NCBI GenBank assembly: GCA_902557215.1
Contig: CACDZM010000001.1
Location: 124,001-188,000, forward strand
Source of the DNA: an uncultured Pelagibacteraceae bacterium
GTDB taxonomy: Bacteria; Pseudomonadota; Alphaproteobacteria; Pelagibacterales; Pelagibacteraceae
Length of the DNA: 64,000 nucleotides
Direction of reading: 5' to 3'
Positions 28,040 through 34,471 of this stretch are shown here, piece by piece. The notes below the pieces were generated by a model. The model ran no database searches. It saw only the letters and a list, made by a program, of their open reading frames with translations, and had not been told where the DNA came from. Each line of letters begins with the position of its first letter. The first letter of the stretch is position 1. Made by a program: the position numbers and the translations under genes.

Positions 28040-28713
28040 TAAATCTTACCAAAATTTCGTTTAATACTTTTATATTCTTTGATAATTCTTTTATAGTCAT
28101 TTTCATTAAAAGCAGGCCATAGTTTTTTTTCGAAGAATATTTCTGAATAAGCAACTTGCCATAACAAAAAATTACTTAATCTTTTTGTATTACCAGTTCT
28201 AATTAATAAGTCAGGGTCTGGTATATTTTTGGTTTGTAGATTTCTACTTAGATTTCTTTCATTTATATTTTCTTTATTTTTTTTTATTTTTTTAAAAGCA
28301 TCTATTAATTCAGATTTAGAGCCATAATTTAATGCTAAATTAATTTGTAATCTGTCATTTTTTAAAGTTTTTTTTTCAGATAAATTAAGTAGTTTATTCA
28401 ATCGTTGTGAAAAACTTTTTTTTCCAATAATTTTAATTCTAATATTTTGGTTGTGTAATTCATTTAATCTATTACTTAAAAAATTTTCTAATAAACTAAA
28501 TAAAAAAGCTATTTCTTTTTGAGGTCTTCTCCAGTTTTCAGTTGAAAATGCATATAATGTTAAAAATTTAATTTTATTTTTAATGGTAGCTTTTATTATT
28601 TTTTCAACTGTTTTAAGACCAGCTTTATGACCAGCATTTCTTGAATTTTTATATTTAAGGCCCCATCTTCCATTACCGTCCATGATAATGGCTACATGAT
28701 TCAAAGGGTTCAT
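28039..28713 (-). CDS. uppS: Undecaprenyl diphosphate synthase (cis-prenyltransferase)
   Basis: Makes the C55 carrier for peptidoglycan and LPS precursors; 224 residues. Motifs are HVAIIMDGNGRWG (catalytic Asp), RNAGHKAGLKTVEKII, LTLYAFSTENWRRP, LALNYGSKSELIDA and DLLIRTGNTKRLSNFLLWQVAYSEIFF. 4-base overlap with frr. Together with ispDF and dxr it connects the MEP pathway to the cell envelope. Confidence 0.96.
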   Translation of the reverse strand: MNPLNHVAIIMDGNGRWGLKYKNSRNAGHKAGLKTVEKIIKATIKNKIKFLTLYAFSTENWRRPQKEIAFLFSLLENFLSNRLNELHNQNIRIKIIGKKSFSQRLNKLLNLSEKKTLKNDRLQINLALNYGSKSELIDAFKKIKKNKENINERNLSRNLQTKNIPDPDLLIRTGNTKRLSNFLLWQVAYSEIFFEKKLWPAFNENDYKRIIKEYKSIKRNFGKI

Positions 28714-29261
28714 ATGGTCATTATTTCTTTTTCTTTAGTGGCAACTTTCTCGTCAACAATAGAAATATGTTTATCTGTAATATTTTGAACATTCTTCTCA
28801 TAAGATTTTTCCTCATCTTCACCTATCTCTTTTGATTTAAGGAGTTTTTTGAGTTCTTCATTTGCATCTCTTCGAATATTTCTAATTGAAATTTTACATT
28901 TTTCTCCCATTGATTTAATCATTTTTTTTAATTCATTTCTTCTCTCTTCATTTAATTCAGGTATTGGTAGTCTAATCAATTGGCCATCTATTTGTGGATT
29001 AAGACCTAATTCTGATTTTTTAATTGATGAGTCTATTAAATTTACGTTGTTTTGATCCCAAACCTGAATATTTATCATTCTAGGTTCAGGTGTCGTAATA
29101 CTACCTAATTGATTAATTGGCATTTGCTGGCCATATACATCAACTTTAATTAAATCTAACATTGCAGCATTTGCTCGACCAGTTCTTAATGATGACAATT
29201 CTTTTGAAAAGACATCAATGGCTTTATTCATCTTGAGGCTATGTGATTTTTCATCAAACAT
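28710..29261 (-). CDS. frr: Ribosome recycling factor
   Basis: Splits post-termination ribosomes with EF-G; 183 residues, full length. Family motifs are ELSSLRTGRANAAMLDLIKVDVYG, PINQLGSITTPEPRMI, GLNPQIDGQLIRLPIPELNEERR and SIRNIRRDANEELKKL. It follows tsf with a one-base stop/start overlap. The usual pyrH gene between tsf and frr is absent. Confidence 0.97.
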   Translation of the reverse strand: MFDEKSHSLKMNKAIDVFSKELSSLRTGRANAAMLDLIKVDVYGQQMPINQLGSITTPEPRMINIQVWDQNNVNLIDSSIKKSELGLNPQIDGQLIRLPIPELNEERRNELKKMIKSMGEKCKISIRNIRRDANEELKKLLKSKEIGEDEEKSYEKNVQNITDKHISIVDEKVATKEKEIMTI

Positions 29262-30112
29262 TATTCGCCTATCTTAATTCTACTGAACTCCTTAATTTTT
29301 AAGTCATTTATAGCAAGTTCTTTTAAAACATCTTTGACTTTTTTTTTTGGCTCCATTACCCAAGCTTGAGTAAGAAGAGCATTTTCCTCTTTAAATTTGT
29401 TCATTTTACCCAAACTTATTTTTTTAGCGATATTTTCTGGTTTTCCCGAATTTTTAAGTTCTTCAGTAACTAACTCTTGCTCTTTATCGATAATCTTTTT
29501 ATCAATTAAATTTGACTCTAATGCTAGGGGGTTTGATGCTGCTATATGCATTGACAATTGTTTTCCAAATGTTTTAACAATATCTGAATTATTTTTTGTC
29601 TCTAACGAGACAATCACTGCTAGTTTTCCTAAGTTGTCTTTTACCACAGTGTGTAGATATTGATAATTAACTGAGGAAGAATTTGATATAGTTCTCGTTT
29701 TACCAATTGTAATTTTCTCCCCTATTTTTGCTATTAATGCCACTAAGTTTTCTTCAACAGAAATATTATTTTGCATTATAGCTTTTTTTAATTTATCAAC
29801 ATCAGAGTTATTTTCATTATTTAGTTCACTGATTTCTTTTACAAAATCAATAAAATCATTATTTTTTGCTACAAAGTCGGTTTCACAATTTACTTCTATG
29901 ACTGATGTTTTTTTTTCATCACCACTAATTGCAACAACACCTTCTTTTGCATCTCTTGACATTTTTTTTGAAGCTTTTGAAATTCCTTTAACTCTTAAAA
30001 TTTCAACTGCTTTATCTAAGTCTCCTGCTGACTCTTTGATAGCTAAATTACAGTCTTTAAAACCTGCACCAGTAGCTTCTCTTAATTTCTTTACTTTCTC
30101 AATATCGCTCAT
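29261..30112 (-). CDS. tsf: Elongation factor Ts
   Basis: Nucleotide-exchange factor for EF-Tu; 283 residues. The N-terminal UBA-like module with [17 protein letters not shown], the [27 protein letters not shown] core signature and the C-terminal [17 protein letters not shown] are present. Starts just after the rpsB stop, so both are governed by the structured rpsB leader. Confidence 0.97.
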
Positions 30113-30113
30113 A

Positions 30114-30929
30114 TTAATTTAATTTGTCTGATTTTTTTTTTGAGAATCTTTTTTCTAGCTTATCTCTGTCGATTTCGGCTACAGTTTTTGTTTTGTCTGA
30201 TTTTTCTTTTTTTTCAGAAGGCTTTTTTGTTTCAATTATTTGTGAAACTTTTTTTGCACTAACAATTGTCTCTTTGATTAAGTTGCAATAAAGATCAATT
30301 GATCTTCTGGCATCGTCGTTTCCAGGTATAGGGAAATCTATGCCATCAGGATTTGAGTTGCTGTCTAATATTGCTATTATTGGTATGCCTAATTTAACTG
30401 ACTCTTGTATAGCTAAAGACTCATAATTAGTGTCAATTATAAATACTAGATCAGGAATTTTTTTCATGTCTGCTATGCCTCCTAATGACCTTTGAAGTTT
30501 ATCTTTTTTAACACTCATTTTTAATAATTCTTTTTTTGTAAAACCTCTATTTTCTGACACTAGGTTCATTTCAAGTTTTTTTAGTTTTTTTATGGAATTT
30601 GATATGGTTCCCCAATTAGTCAACATTCCACCCAACCATCTGTAATTTACAAAATATTGATCTGTTTCCTTTGCTACTTCCGCGATAGCCTCTGAAGCTT
30701 GTTTTTTAGTAGACACAAACAATATTTTTCCATTGTTTGATATAACCTCAAAAACCTTTGCTAAGGCAGTTTTTGTAAGTTCTAATGTCTGTGTAAGATC
30801 TATTATATGAATTGAGTCTCTCTTGCCAAAGATGTATTTTTTCATTTTAGGATTCCATCTTAGAGTTTTGTGTCCTAAATGAACTCCTGCTTCTAAAAGT
30901 TGTTGAATAGTAACGTTAGGTATCTTCAT
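30114..30929 (-). CDS. rpsB: Ribosomal protein uS2
   Basis: Small-subunit protein uS2, 271 residues. Motifs are [80 protein letters not shown] and [15 protein letters not shown]. The last roughly 45 residues form a highly charged Lys/Glu extension beyond the bacterial core. Preceded by a leader that can fold into a pseudoknot covering the ribosome-binding region. Confidence 0.98.
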
Positions 30930-30930
30930 A

Positions 30931-30998
30931 TTTATTCCCGGTTAAGCCACCACAGTAATTTCCAAACGGACCGGAGGTATAAAACCAAATACTGTGTG
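30931..30998 (-). promoter_or_regulatory. rpsB 5' leader with H-type pseudoknot (candidate S2 autoregulatory element)
   Basis: On the minus strand, helix 1 pairs CACAGTA (30996-30990) with TACTGTG (30957-30951), seven perfect pairs. Helix 2 pairs CCGGT (30974-30970) with ACCGG (30942-30938), extendable by a U-G pair. The order a-b-a'-b' makes the helices cross. Helix 2 covers the GGGA that lies 6 bases before the ATG and is the only Shine-Dalgarno candidate. The stretch is conspicuously GC-richer than its surroundings. Leader pseudoknots are known to mediate S2 feedback on rpsB-tsf in gammaproteobacteria; homology here is inferred. Confidence 0.7.
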
Positions 30999-31054
30999 CG
31001 TATTTAATAATTTAAAGTTTACTTACTATATATAATATTTTTGACAAGAAAAAA

Positions 31055-34000
31055 TTATCTTATATGTGAGAATATTTCCTCATTTTTAAGTAAATTTAAA
31101 GATTTATGGTCAACTTTTCTGGGATTTTCTAACTTAAAAAATAATGTACTTGTTTCATTTTGTAATTCTATTGAAATTTTAGTTTCTCCTTTTTTGTTGA
31201 GAATTTTTGACAATTTTTCAATTTGTTTTTTTGATTTAATCTTAAATGTTACCTCAGATATGGGTCTTTCAAATAATTTTTTTAGGGATACTATCTTTTG
31301 AACATTTATTCTAGTAAGTCTATTTTTATCATTAGTAAGTGATTTTGACAAAGTTAATGACAAAGAATTTCCCTCTCTTAAGATTTCTCGATTCATCTGA
31401 AGAGTGTCAGAAAAAATAAATAATTCAAAAACTTTGTTTAAGTCAGTAAGTTTAATAACAGCATATGAATTTCCTTTTGCAGTCTTTCTCTCCTGGATTT
31501 TTAAAAGTGTTCCAGCAATGTTTGCCTCATTGATGTTTAAATTAGAATTAAATTTATTGAAATCTATAATGTTAAAATCTTCGAAAAAATTTTTATATTG
31601 ATTTAGAGGATGATCTGAAACAAAAAAACCAACAGCCTCAAATTCCTTTGAAAGCCTTTCTTCAAATTTCCAGTCCATAATATCTGGTATCAATTCATTT
31701 TTTTGATTCTCTCTTTCTTCAAATAATTCAATTTGATTATTAGATTTATTTTCATAAGCATTTTTTGATTTTGTTATCAAATTTGGAATAGAGTTAAATA
31801 ATGATTGTCTATTTAAATCCAAATCATCAAAAGCACCCGCTTTTACCAATCCTTCAAGTTGTAATTTATTTATATCTTTTGGGTTAACTCGATTTATAAA
31901 ATCACTGATTGAATTAAATTTTCCATTTTTTGATCTTTCTTCGATTATTCTAGAAATCGACTCATAGCCAACAGCCTTAATTCCGCCAAGTGCATAATAA
32001 AATTTTCCATTTTTTGTTTTAAAATCAGCATAACACTCATTTATATTTGGCCTGATAATTTCAATTCCTAGTCTTTTAAGTTCTTCGTAAAATTCACTTA
32101 ATTTATTTTGATTTGAAATATCCATGGTCATTGATGCTGCTATAAACTCTTTTGGATAATATGTTTTTAAAAAAGCTGTTTGATAAGAAATTATAGCATA
32201 CGCAGCTGCGTGGCTTTTATTAAATCCATATTCTGCAAAAGGTTCAATTTTTAAGAAAATTCCAGCTGCAACTTCTTTATTGATACCATTTTTAACAGCA
32301 CCATTTATAAAATTCTGTTTTTGTTTTTCTAATTCAGCTCTTTTTTTTTTACCCATAGCACGCCTTAAGAGATCTGCTTGACCAGCTGTAAAACCTGATA
32401 ATTTTTGCGCTATTTGCATAACTTGTTCCTGGTAGATAATTACCCCATAAGTCGGTTTTAAAATTTCCTCTAGTAAAGGATGCAAATAATCAGGCGTTTG
32501 TTTTCCATTTTTACAATCATTGTACGTTGGGATATTATTCATAGGTCCCGGTCTATATAAAGCAACTAAAGCAATAATATCTTCGATGTGATTTGGCCTC
32601 ATCTGAGTCAAGGCCTCTCTCATACCAGCACTTTCAATTTGAAATAGACCAACCGTGTTACCTGAGGATAAAAGATCAAAAACTTTTTGATCATCATAAT
32701 CTATTTCTTCAATATCAAAATTTTGATTAAATTTTCTGATTAATTTTTGTGTATTATTGATCACTGTTAAAGTTTTAAGACCTAAAAAATCAAACTTTAT
32801 TAGTCCAGCATTTTCTGCAGAATACATATCAAATTGTGTTGATGGTAATAATAAATTTGATGAAGTGTCTTTATATAAAGGAACTGCTTCTGTTAATTTT
32901 TTGTCTGCAATTACAACGCCTGCAGCATGAGTTGCAAAATTTCTATTCAAGCCCTCTAGTTTAAGTGAAAGACTTGTAAGTTTCTTAACTCTAGGATCAT
33001 CCTTAATTAATTTTTGAAGTCTAGGTTCACCAGAAATACATTCGGATAAACTTTGAGGTCTTGATGGATCGAAGGGTATCATTTTTGAGATATTGTCAAC
33101 AAATCCATATGCCAAACCTAAAACTCTACCAACATCTCTTATTACCATTCTAGCTTTCAATTTTCCAAAGGTAACAATATGTGCAACACTATCCTTATAT
33201 TTTTTATTTAGATATTCAAAAACTAGATCCCTTTTTTCCTCACAAAAATCTATATCAAAATCTGGCATCGATATTCGATCAGGATTTAAAAATCTCTCAA
33301 AAATTAAATTAAATTTAATTGGATCGACATCTGTTATAGATAAACACCATGCAACCAGTGATCCAGCCCCAGAACCCCTTCCAGGTCCAACCGGAATGTC
33401 ATTTTTTTTTGCCCATTTGATATAATCAGACACAATTAAAAAATAACTGGCATATTTCATTTCTATAATAATATTCAACTCATGATCTAATCTATCTTTA
33501 TACTTTAAATAATTGCTATTCGATAAAAAATTACTATTTTTAACTTTAAAAACTTTTTCAAATTTATTCTTTAATCCTTCTAATGAATCTCTTTTTAATA
33601 TTTCATCTGCATCACCACCTTTTTCAGAACTAATATTAGGTAAAATTGGTTTTGAAAATATCGGTCTGAAACTACAACGATATGGAAAATTGTAATTATT
33701 TTCTAAAGCTTCAGGTAAATCTGCAAATAATTCTGACATTTCAGAATTATTTTTCAAATAATGCTGGTCACTTAATCTTACTCTATTTTTTTCATTAACA
33801 TATGTTTTATTTTTAATGCAAATTAAAGCATCATGTGCCTCATGCATATTCTTATCAATATAATAAACCTCATTTGTTGCTATTAGAGGTATTTCTAAGG
33901 TTAAAGACTTAGATAAGTTAAATTTTTCAAATCCTTTCTCATTAATATCTCCATGACGTTGTATTTCAATATAAAACCTGTCTTTATATAAAGATTTAAG

Positions 34001-34471
34001 ATCTGAGTATAATTTTTCAATTTCTTTAAATTTTCCTTTTTCAAATAATTGACCAAATAAACCATTTACTGTGCCAGAAAACAATGAAACACCTTCACCT
34101 GGTTTTAATAACTCATTAAAATTTAAATATGGTTCATTTATTTCAATATCATTAAGATACGATAATGATGAAAGTTCAATGACTCTTTTATATCCATTTT
34201 CATTTAAAGCATACAGAGGTATAAGACCTATTGTGTCATTGTACTTAAAATTTATTTGAGTTCCAATTATAGGTTGAACACCAGTTTTAGATATTTTTTC
34301 GGCAAACTCTAGGGCGCCACATAAATTAGATGTGTCGCTTAAACCTAAAGCTCTAATATTTTTATCTTTAAAAAAATCTCTTAAATCGTCTATTTTAACC
34401 GCTCCCTCACAAATCGAATATTGAGAATGTATTTTTAAATGATTGAAACTTTGAATATTAGAATTAGGCAT
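31055..34471 (-). CDS. dnaE: DNA polymerase III alpha subunit
   Basis: Replicative polymerase, 1138 residues, DnaE1 type. The N-terminal PHP domain starts NHLKIHSQYSICEGA and contains LSDTSNLCGALEF. The catalytic palm shows GPGRGSGAGSLVAWCL and PDFDIDFCEEKRD, where the aspartates bind metal. The finger region has LVALYRPGPM and YQEQVMQIAQKLSGF. Beta-clamp and OB-fold regions follow to the C-terminus (NIAGTLLKIQERKTAKGN). It overlaps lolD by 8 bases. Its stop lies 125 bases before rpsB. Confidence 0.97.
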   Translation of the reverse strand: MPNSNIQSFNHLKIHSQYSICEGAVKIDDLRDFFKDKNIRALGLSDTSNLCGALEFAEKISKTGVQPIIGTQINFKYNDTIGLIPLYALNENGYKRVIELSSLSYLNDIEINEPYLNFNELLKPGEGVSLFSGTVNGLFGQLFEKGKFKEIEKLYSDLKSLYKDRFYIEIQRHGDINEKGFEKFNLSKSLTLEIPLIATNEVYYIDKNMHEAHDALICIKNKTYVNEKNRVRLSDQHYLKNNSEMSELFADLPEALENNYNFPYRCSFRPIFSKPILPNISSEKGGDADEILKRDSLEGLKNKFEKVFKVKNSNFLSNSNYLKYKDRLDHELNIIIEMKYASYFLIVSDYIKWAKKNDIPVGPGRGSGAGSLVAWCLSITDVDPIKFNLIFERFLNPDRISMPDFDIDFCEEKRDLVFEYLNKKYKDSVAHIVTFGKLKARMVIRDVGRVLGLAYGFVDNISKMIPFDPSRPQSLSECISGEPRLQKLIKDDPRVKKLTSLSLKLEGLNRNFATHAAGVVIADKKLTEAVPLYKDTSSNLLLPSTQFDMYSAENAGLIKFDFLGLKTLTVINNTQKLIRKFNQNFDIEEIDYDDQKVFDLLSSGNTVGLFQIESAGMREALTQMRPNHIEDIIALVALYRPGPMNNIPTYNDCKNGKQTPDYLHPLLEEILKPTYGVIIYQEQVMQIAQKLSGFTAGQADLLRRAMGKKKRAELEKQKQNFINGAVKNGINKEVAAGIFLKIEPFAEYGFNKSHAAAYAIISYQTAFLKTYYPKEFIAASMTMDISNQNKLSEFYEELKRLGIEIIRPNINECYADFKTKNGKFYYALGGIKAVGYESISRIIEERSKNGKFNSISDFINRVNPKDINKLQLEGLVKAGAFDDLDLNRQSLFNSIPNLITKSKNAYENKSNNQIELFEERENQKNELIPDIMDWKFEERLSKEFEAVGFFVSDHPLNQYKNFFEDFNIIDFNKFNSNLNINEANIAGTLLKIQERKTAKGNSYAVIKLTDLNKVFELFIFSDTLQMNREILREGNSLSLTLSKSLTNDKNRLTRINVQKIVSLKKLFERPISEVTFKIKSKKQIEKLSKILNKKGETKISIELQNETSTLFFKLENPRKVDHKSLNLLKNEEIFSHIR

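Follow-up and report, generated by a model that had tools for sequence, protein, structure and literature searches.

Between dnaE and rpsB, in a 64,000-nt stretch of DNA from an uncultured Pelagibacteraceae bacterium (contig CACDZM010000001.1; the whole stretch is referred to here as the window), lies a gap of 125 nt on the minus strand, and the question here is whether the rpsB mRNA begins with a structured leader that controls its translation. Profile models identify the genes on either side as dnaE upstream (31055..34471, minus strand; NF004226 (PRK05673), 1307.9 bits, cut-off 1002) and, directly downstream of the leader, rpsB, which encodes ribosomal protein S2 (30114..30929, minus strand; TIGR01011, 317.6 bits, cut-off 76.3), followed by tsf, which encodes elongation factor Ts and presumably belongs to the same operon (29261..30112, minus strand; TIGR00116, 244.9 bits, cut-off 104.05). 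In 'Cand. P. ubique', too, the upstream neighbour is dnaE, as tabulated by Meyer et al. 2009 (PMC2704228).

We note that tsf adjoins frr in the window (28710-30112), with no pyrH (UMP kinase) gene between them. The pyrH model TIGR02075 exceeds its cut-off in none of 23 genomes of the genus (the window's own included) and in none of five genomes from other genera of the family; it does so in all four sister-family genomes and all three other-order genomes searched, in each of these seven at most 1.5 kb downstream from the rpsB match. UMP kinase is usually essential; its gene may have been lost from the family, or the enzyme replaced.

The dnaE-rpsB gap ends in a pseudoknotted element

At the rpsB-side end of the gap, cmscan with Rfam family RF01815 and a covariance model, R1, that we built from 80 Pelagibacteraceae leaders delimit an element of 71 nt (31000-30930, minus strand); the RF01815 match, obtained by searching the leader alone at a loose threshold, spans 30920-31000. 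The earlier note had read two helices from the minus strand, and both are found where it placed them, interleaved in the order a-b-a'-b'. The first is the inner part of a stem, P1, in which CACAGTA (30990..30996) pairs with TACTGTG (30951..30957), the second a pseudoknot between CCGGT (30970..30974) and ACCGG (30938..30942), to which T30975 may add a wobble pair. On the outer side of P1, beyond a bulged A30997, the RF01815 alignment pairs CGC (30998..31000) with GTG (30948-30950); the middle one of these three pairs, a G-U in the window, is poorly supported and unpaired in 7 of the 60 distinct rows of our family alignment, and the other two are invariant. Within P1, the covariation alignment places a P2 of three pairs (GGT at 30984..30986 with ACC at 30976-30978) and a P3 of two (CC at 30968..30969 with GG at 30962-30963), which can form as described for 'Cand. 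P. ubique'; the account of that motif gives P1, a 3-bp P2, a 2-bp P3 and a J2-3 pseudoknot, and its discussion states that there is no P3 (PMC2704228).

The rpsB ATG starts at 30929, so that the 3' arm of the pseudoknot ends 8 nt before it, which bears out the proposal of a pseudoknotted leader over the rpsB landing site. A Shine-Dalgarno (SD)-like word, GGGA (30936..30939), overlaps this arm, with its first two G within the pseudoknot helix and its third able to form a G-U pair with T30975; the 16S rRNA of the same genome ends in GGATTACCTCCTTTC. The alignment of leaders reveals a second G-rich word, a conserved GGNGG (here GGTGG, 30947..30951), which shares its first G with the end of the inner P1 arm, and because it lies 18-22 nt before the ATG it is too far away to be an ordinary SD candidate. 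In the sister family this word reads GGATG in 16 of the 18 leaders shown (L245-L261 and L264), and that part of the motif is therefore changeable there.

Compensatory changes support the helices

When the 125-nt gap was shuffled 2000 times with its dinucleotides preserved, a 7-bp helix interleaved with a 5-bp helix of at least four G/C turned up in 21 shuffles, and in 513 once the G/C demand was dropped; taken from the sequence alone, the signal of the two helices is moderate, suggestive rather than decisive. What raises the helices beyond chance is their conservation, seen in compensatory changes among relatives and in a single genome hit of the covariance model.

We aligned the window with 79 related loci (one further locus, L068, was omitted because its contig begins inside rpsB), which gave 80 leaders and 60 distinct rows. 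As these are the best 80 of 569 relatives, the set leans towards near kin; among named relatives, the nearest are uncultured Pelagibacteraceae (SAR11), and the S2 of the first one listed is 92% identical over residues 1-256. Two leaders, L095 and L098, seem to be one base off at the pseudoknot in the 80-row alignment and were counted as unpaired. Over the 60 rows, 96.1% of cells are paired, as compared to 93.2% in shuffles, and six pairs are changed on both sides as compared to 2.8 (1 of 500 shuffles reaches six). These changes involve 40 cells as compared to 11.6 (reached in 0 of 500), and further pair types number 16 as compared to 13.7 (reached in 14 of 500). When partners were slid against each other as a control, at most 54.7% of cells were paired, and changes on both sides reached no more than 4 pairs and 7 cells.

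The compensatory changes expected in both helices were thus found, strongly so in P1, where five of ten pairs have changed on both sides (in 1, 6, 20, 4 and 7 cells). Within the family the pseudoknot hardly varies, and one of its pairs is compensated, from G-C to U-A, in 2 of 60 rows (L048 and L067), so that support at the family level rests on two sequences, to which changes in other orders are added below. P2 and P3 show no change on both sides in the 60 rows and have no covariation of their own. The earlier note had named variation of the arms without compensation as the outcome that would speak against the fold; no such variation appears in the core pairs, but the pair at the inner end of P1 (A30990-T30957 here) fails to form in 24 of 60 rows, and the additional T-G pair of the pseudoknot in 6.

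With model R1 the leader scores 92.1 bits and is the sole hit in its own genome at E <= 1, a score that is not independent because the window is among the training leaders. Matches to R1 occur in 44 of 46 genomes of the genus, its own included (the exceptions are G208 and G217), a tally that likewise is not independent because some of these genomes supplied training leaders (G184 and L064 have identical coordinates). The hits compared in three genomes (G191, G012 and G178) end at the base preceding rpsB. Among 58 loci, R1 recovered 11 of 11 from other Pelagibacterales at E <= 5.1e-5 and, from other orders, 14 of 46 at E <= 0.01 and 32 of 46 at E <= 1; the leader of E. coli (L213) was not recovered in this search.

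The element is the rpsB motif

The earlier note had suggested a comparison with the Rfam family of S2 leaders (t44). The best Rfam match of the leader is RF01815, rpsB (29.9 bits, E 1.8e-4), followed at the same place and strand by RF00127, t44 (23.4 bits, E 0.0059), both of them below the gathering scores of 40 and 44, respectively; at gathering scores the whole window yields three tRNAs only. A gathering score is a detection threshold and not an anatomical feature, and in anatomy the window has what was described for the rpsB motif (PMC2704228), namely the same gene, the dnaE-rpsB gap, a P1 that ends in short P2 and P3 helices, and a J2-3 pseudoknot with a stretch 3' of P1. It was in 'Cand. 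Pelagibacter ubique' that this motif was discovered, pseudoknot included, likewise between dnaE and rpsB, and it was reported from the majority of both Alpha- and Gammaproteobacteria (Meyer et al. 2009, PMC2704228). The caveat of the earlier note, that conservation of an alphaproteobacterial version was only inferred, is accordingly out of date. Taken together, these comparisons confirm that the leader in the window is the rpsB motif (RF01815), real and conserved; the element has been known since 2009 and is ordinary apart from the fact that its knot sits directly on the ribosome landing site.

The gathering score of RF01815 was passed in none of 61 genomes (the window's own and its relatives), and at E <= 0.001 with stricter filters 21 of the 61 match, the window's own genome not among them. 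Among 14 control genomes the sole match, below the cut-off, is in Caulobacter vibrioides. Of 20 leaders from the order (3 from other genera of the family and 17 from the sister family), 4 match at E <= 0.01; of 19 leaders from other orders of the class, 4 reach the gathering score. At that score, RF01815 misses the element in the lineage in which the motif was discovered, and also in 15 of the 19 leaders from other orders.

Rfam types RF01815 as an sRNA gene. Since t44 is typed in the same way and the annotation of E. coli MG1655 has a gene, tff, at this place, one might suppose that the element acts as a free small RNA. The element, however, extends into the rpsB landing site, and a consensus scan of 30900-31200 gave no terminator-like site, and we regard a free small RNA as highly improbable. 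A terminator or attenuator was rejected on the same consensus scan. No sigma-70-like site was found in 30900-31200 (shuffles give 1.8), so that the promoter was not located.

The pseudoknot is retained in most alphaproteobacterial leaders read

S2 is present in 113 of 114 genomes of the class, from which we read 109 leaders (L103-L211; L103 is from the window's own family and 108 are from other orders), three genomes (G171, G098 and G145) having been left out of the set. An ACCGG near the ATG occurs in 87 of the 109, and in 86 of these 87 a CCGGT lies upstream (the exception is L176). A further 18 leaders have a variant arm, and 14 of them contain a strict upstream complement of their own of at least 5 bp (in L178 partly outside the arm); the other four (L146, L148, L154 and L201) have fewer than five strict pairs, and L146, L148 and L201 gain pairs via G-U. 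Four leaders (L124, L188, L198 and L203) had no anchor in this analysis.

The complement of a variant arm averages 5.78 in its own leader, as compared to 5.11 when leaders are swapped among the variants (2 of 1000 swaps reach 5.78) and 4.48 against consensus leaders (0 of 1000 reach it). Because swapped leaders also average 5.11, it is the difference between own and swapped leaders that counts, and single variant leaders prove little.

The CCTCC of the leader arises where two helix arms meet

The earlier note had also pointed out that the upstream pseudoknot arm lies in a stretch containing ACCTCC, as found at the 3' end of 16S rRNA, and had suggested that the leader may mimic this end; on such a reading the leader would act as an anti-SD decoy. 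The 16S 3' end in the window's genome does keep CCTCC, a CCTCC precedes GGT or TGT in 75 of the 80 named Pelagibacteraceae leaders, and CCTCCGGT is present in 25 of 25 genomes of the genus. Outside the genus the resemblance does not hold: CCTCCGGT is absent from all 7 leaders of other genera in the family and from all 20 of the sister family, although every one of these keeps CCGGT and ACCGG, and any CCTCC between -110 and -25 is found in 6 of 108 leaders from other orders. The CCTCC of the window is a junction, in which one T separates the CC that ends the P2 3' arm from the CC that starts the pseudoknot arm. As ACCTCC is not kept beyond the needs of the helices in other genera, the sister family or other orders, we reject mimicry of the anti-SD, which we consider hardly credible.

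The pseudoknot lies close to the start codon in Pelagibacterales

We measured the distance from the pseudoknot 3' arm to the ATG and searched for SD words by a coarse rule, taking AGGA, GGAG, GAGG and AAGG as separate words within the gap and replacing AAGG by GGGA for words that overlap the arm. In the named set the distance is 8 nt in 74 of 80 leaders and 7-10 nt in all 80, and a separate SD word is present in two (L094 and L098) and absent in 78. In 25 genomes of the genus the distance is 7-9 nt, with no separate SD word and 24 overlapping SD-like words; in seven genomes from other genera of the family it is 7-10 nt, with two separate and two overlapping words; and in 20 sister-family genomes it is 7-10 nt, with no separate and 20 overlapping words. 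These 52 genomes of the order (52 of 52 at 7-10 nt) overlap with the named set of 80.

The class as a whole is arranged differently. Across its 87 leaders with ACCGG (L103 included) the median gap is 16 nt (8-23) and 75 have a separate SD word. Among the 86 without L103 an overlapping SD word is present in 24, 14 of which also have a separate one, and two have neither; the SAR11-like state, an overlapping word only, is thus found in 10 of 86 leaders of other orders. The E. coli rpsB leader (t44, RF00127; 83.5 bits against that model), which is an S2 operator, precedes rpsB as in the window and has a P1 of the CACACA / GTGG type. Read by eye, its pseudoknot is GGGGT/ACCCC, with the ACCCC arm 24 nt before the ATG and a separate GAGG between the two, whereas the distance in the window is 8 nt. 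The distance to the start codon is not discussed in the portion of Meyer et al. 2009 (PMC2704228) drawn on here, and the compact geometry was not found in the published literature searched, which left out most subscription papers; it is the sole part of our finding for which no published description was found.

In the window at large, a crude test gave no excess of SD words before genes (8 of 55, as compared to 6 of 55 inside genes, with starts not curated), and the mean SD duplex energy is no better upstream (-0.65) than inside genes (-0.99). Given this result and the weakness of GGGA as an SD, the fold may act more by blocking the landing site than by hiding an SD. A weak SD, unaccompanied by a separate SD word in all but two of the 80 leaders, would also be in keeping with a structured landing site, an element that promotes translation or stabilises the mRNA and takes no part in feedback by S2. 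Yet the leader of E. coli responds to S2 in trans (PMC2704228, PMC10931766), and we think it improbable that the element serves merely as such a landing aid or stability element.

Discussion

In E. coli, rpsB-tsf is repressed by S2 through the leader (Meyer et al. 2009, PMC2704228), and S1 assists S2 in this repression (PMC10931766). We infer that S2 is the ligand in SAR11 as well, and that the element in the window is probably (with a probability of roughly 0.8) a cis-acting operator of rpsB-tsf for autogenous repression by S2. Excess S2 (in E. coli together with S1) would bind and stabilise the fold made up of P1, P2, P3 and the pseudoknot, the folded leader would block landing of the 30S subunit on rpsB and, through coupling, the output of EF-Ts would be lowered as well.

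How S2 represses is a separate matter. In E. coli the ribosome-binding site is outside the S2 operator, and the mechanism was called unclear in a 2024 review (PMC10931766). The SAR11 fold sits on the landing site, and direct occlusion, or else entrapment, is therefore likely; because the stretch 9-13 nt before the ATG is taken up by the 3' arm of the pseudoknot, folding would be expected to block 30S landing. On balance we lean slightly towards repression by occlusion of the landing site. In entrapment, a mechanism known for S15 and S4, the 30S subunit would bind a leader whose pseudoknot is intact, and S2 would hold the stalled complex, so that only the last step differs from occlusion. The position of the pseudoknot inside the usual initiation footprint, together with the report that the uS2 mechanism is unclear (PMC10931766), is compatible with entrapment, which we nevertheless rate as unlikely, if less so than the other alternatives above.

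We tentatively raise the possibility, to which we give somewhat less than even odds, that Pelagibacterales converted a distant S2 operator into a landing-site switch of about 70 nt that acts directly. On this suggestion the separate SD would have been lost, the pseudoknot 3' arm with its GGGA or GGAG would have replaced it, and S2 and the ribosome would compete for the same bases. Such a switch need not be unique to Pelagibacterales, as 10 of 86 leaders from other orders have an overlapping SD word only.

The compensatory changes in many single-cell genomes confirm a motif first seen in this lineage, one that the present RF01815 model of Rfam misses in Pelagibacterales at its curated cut-off. 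The compact geometry provides a small system in which to test autogenous repression by S2, the mechanism of which is called unclear in the review cited above (PMC10931766). If Pelagibacterales do use a landing-site switch, it would represent a streamlined form of S2 feedback, with a mechanism unlike the gammaproteobacterial one.
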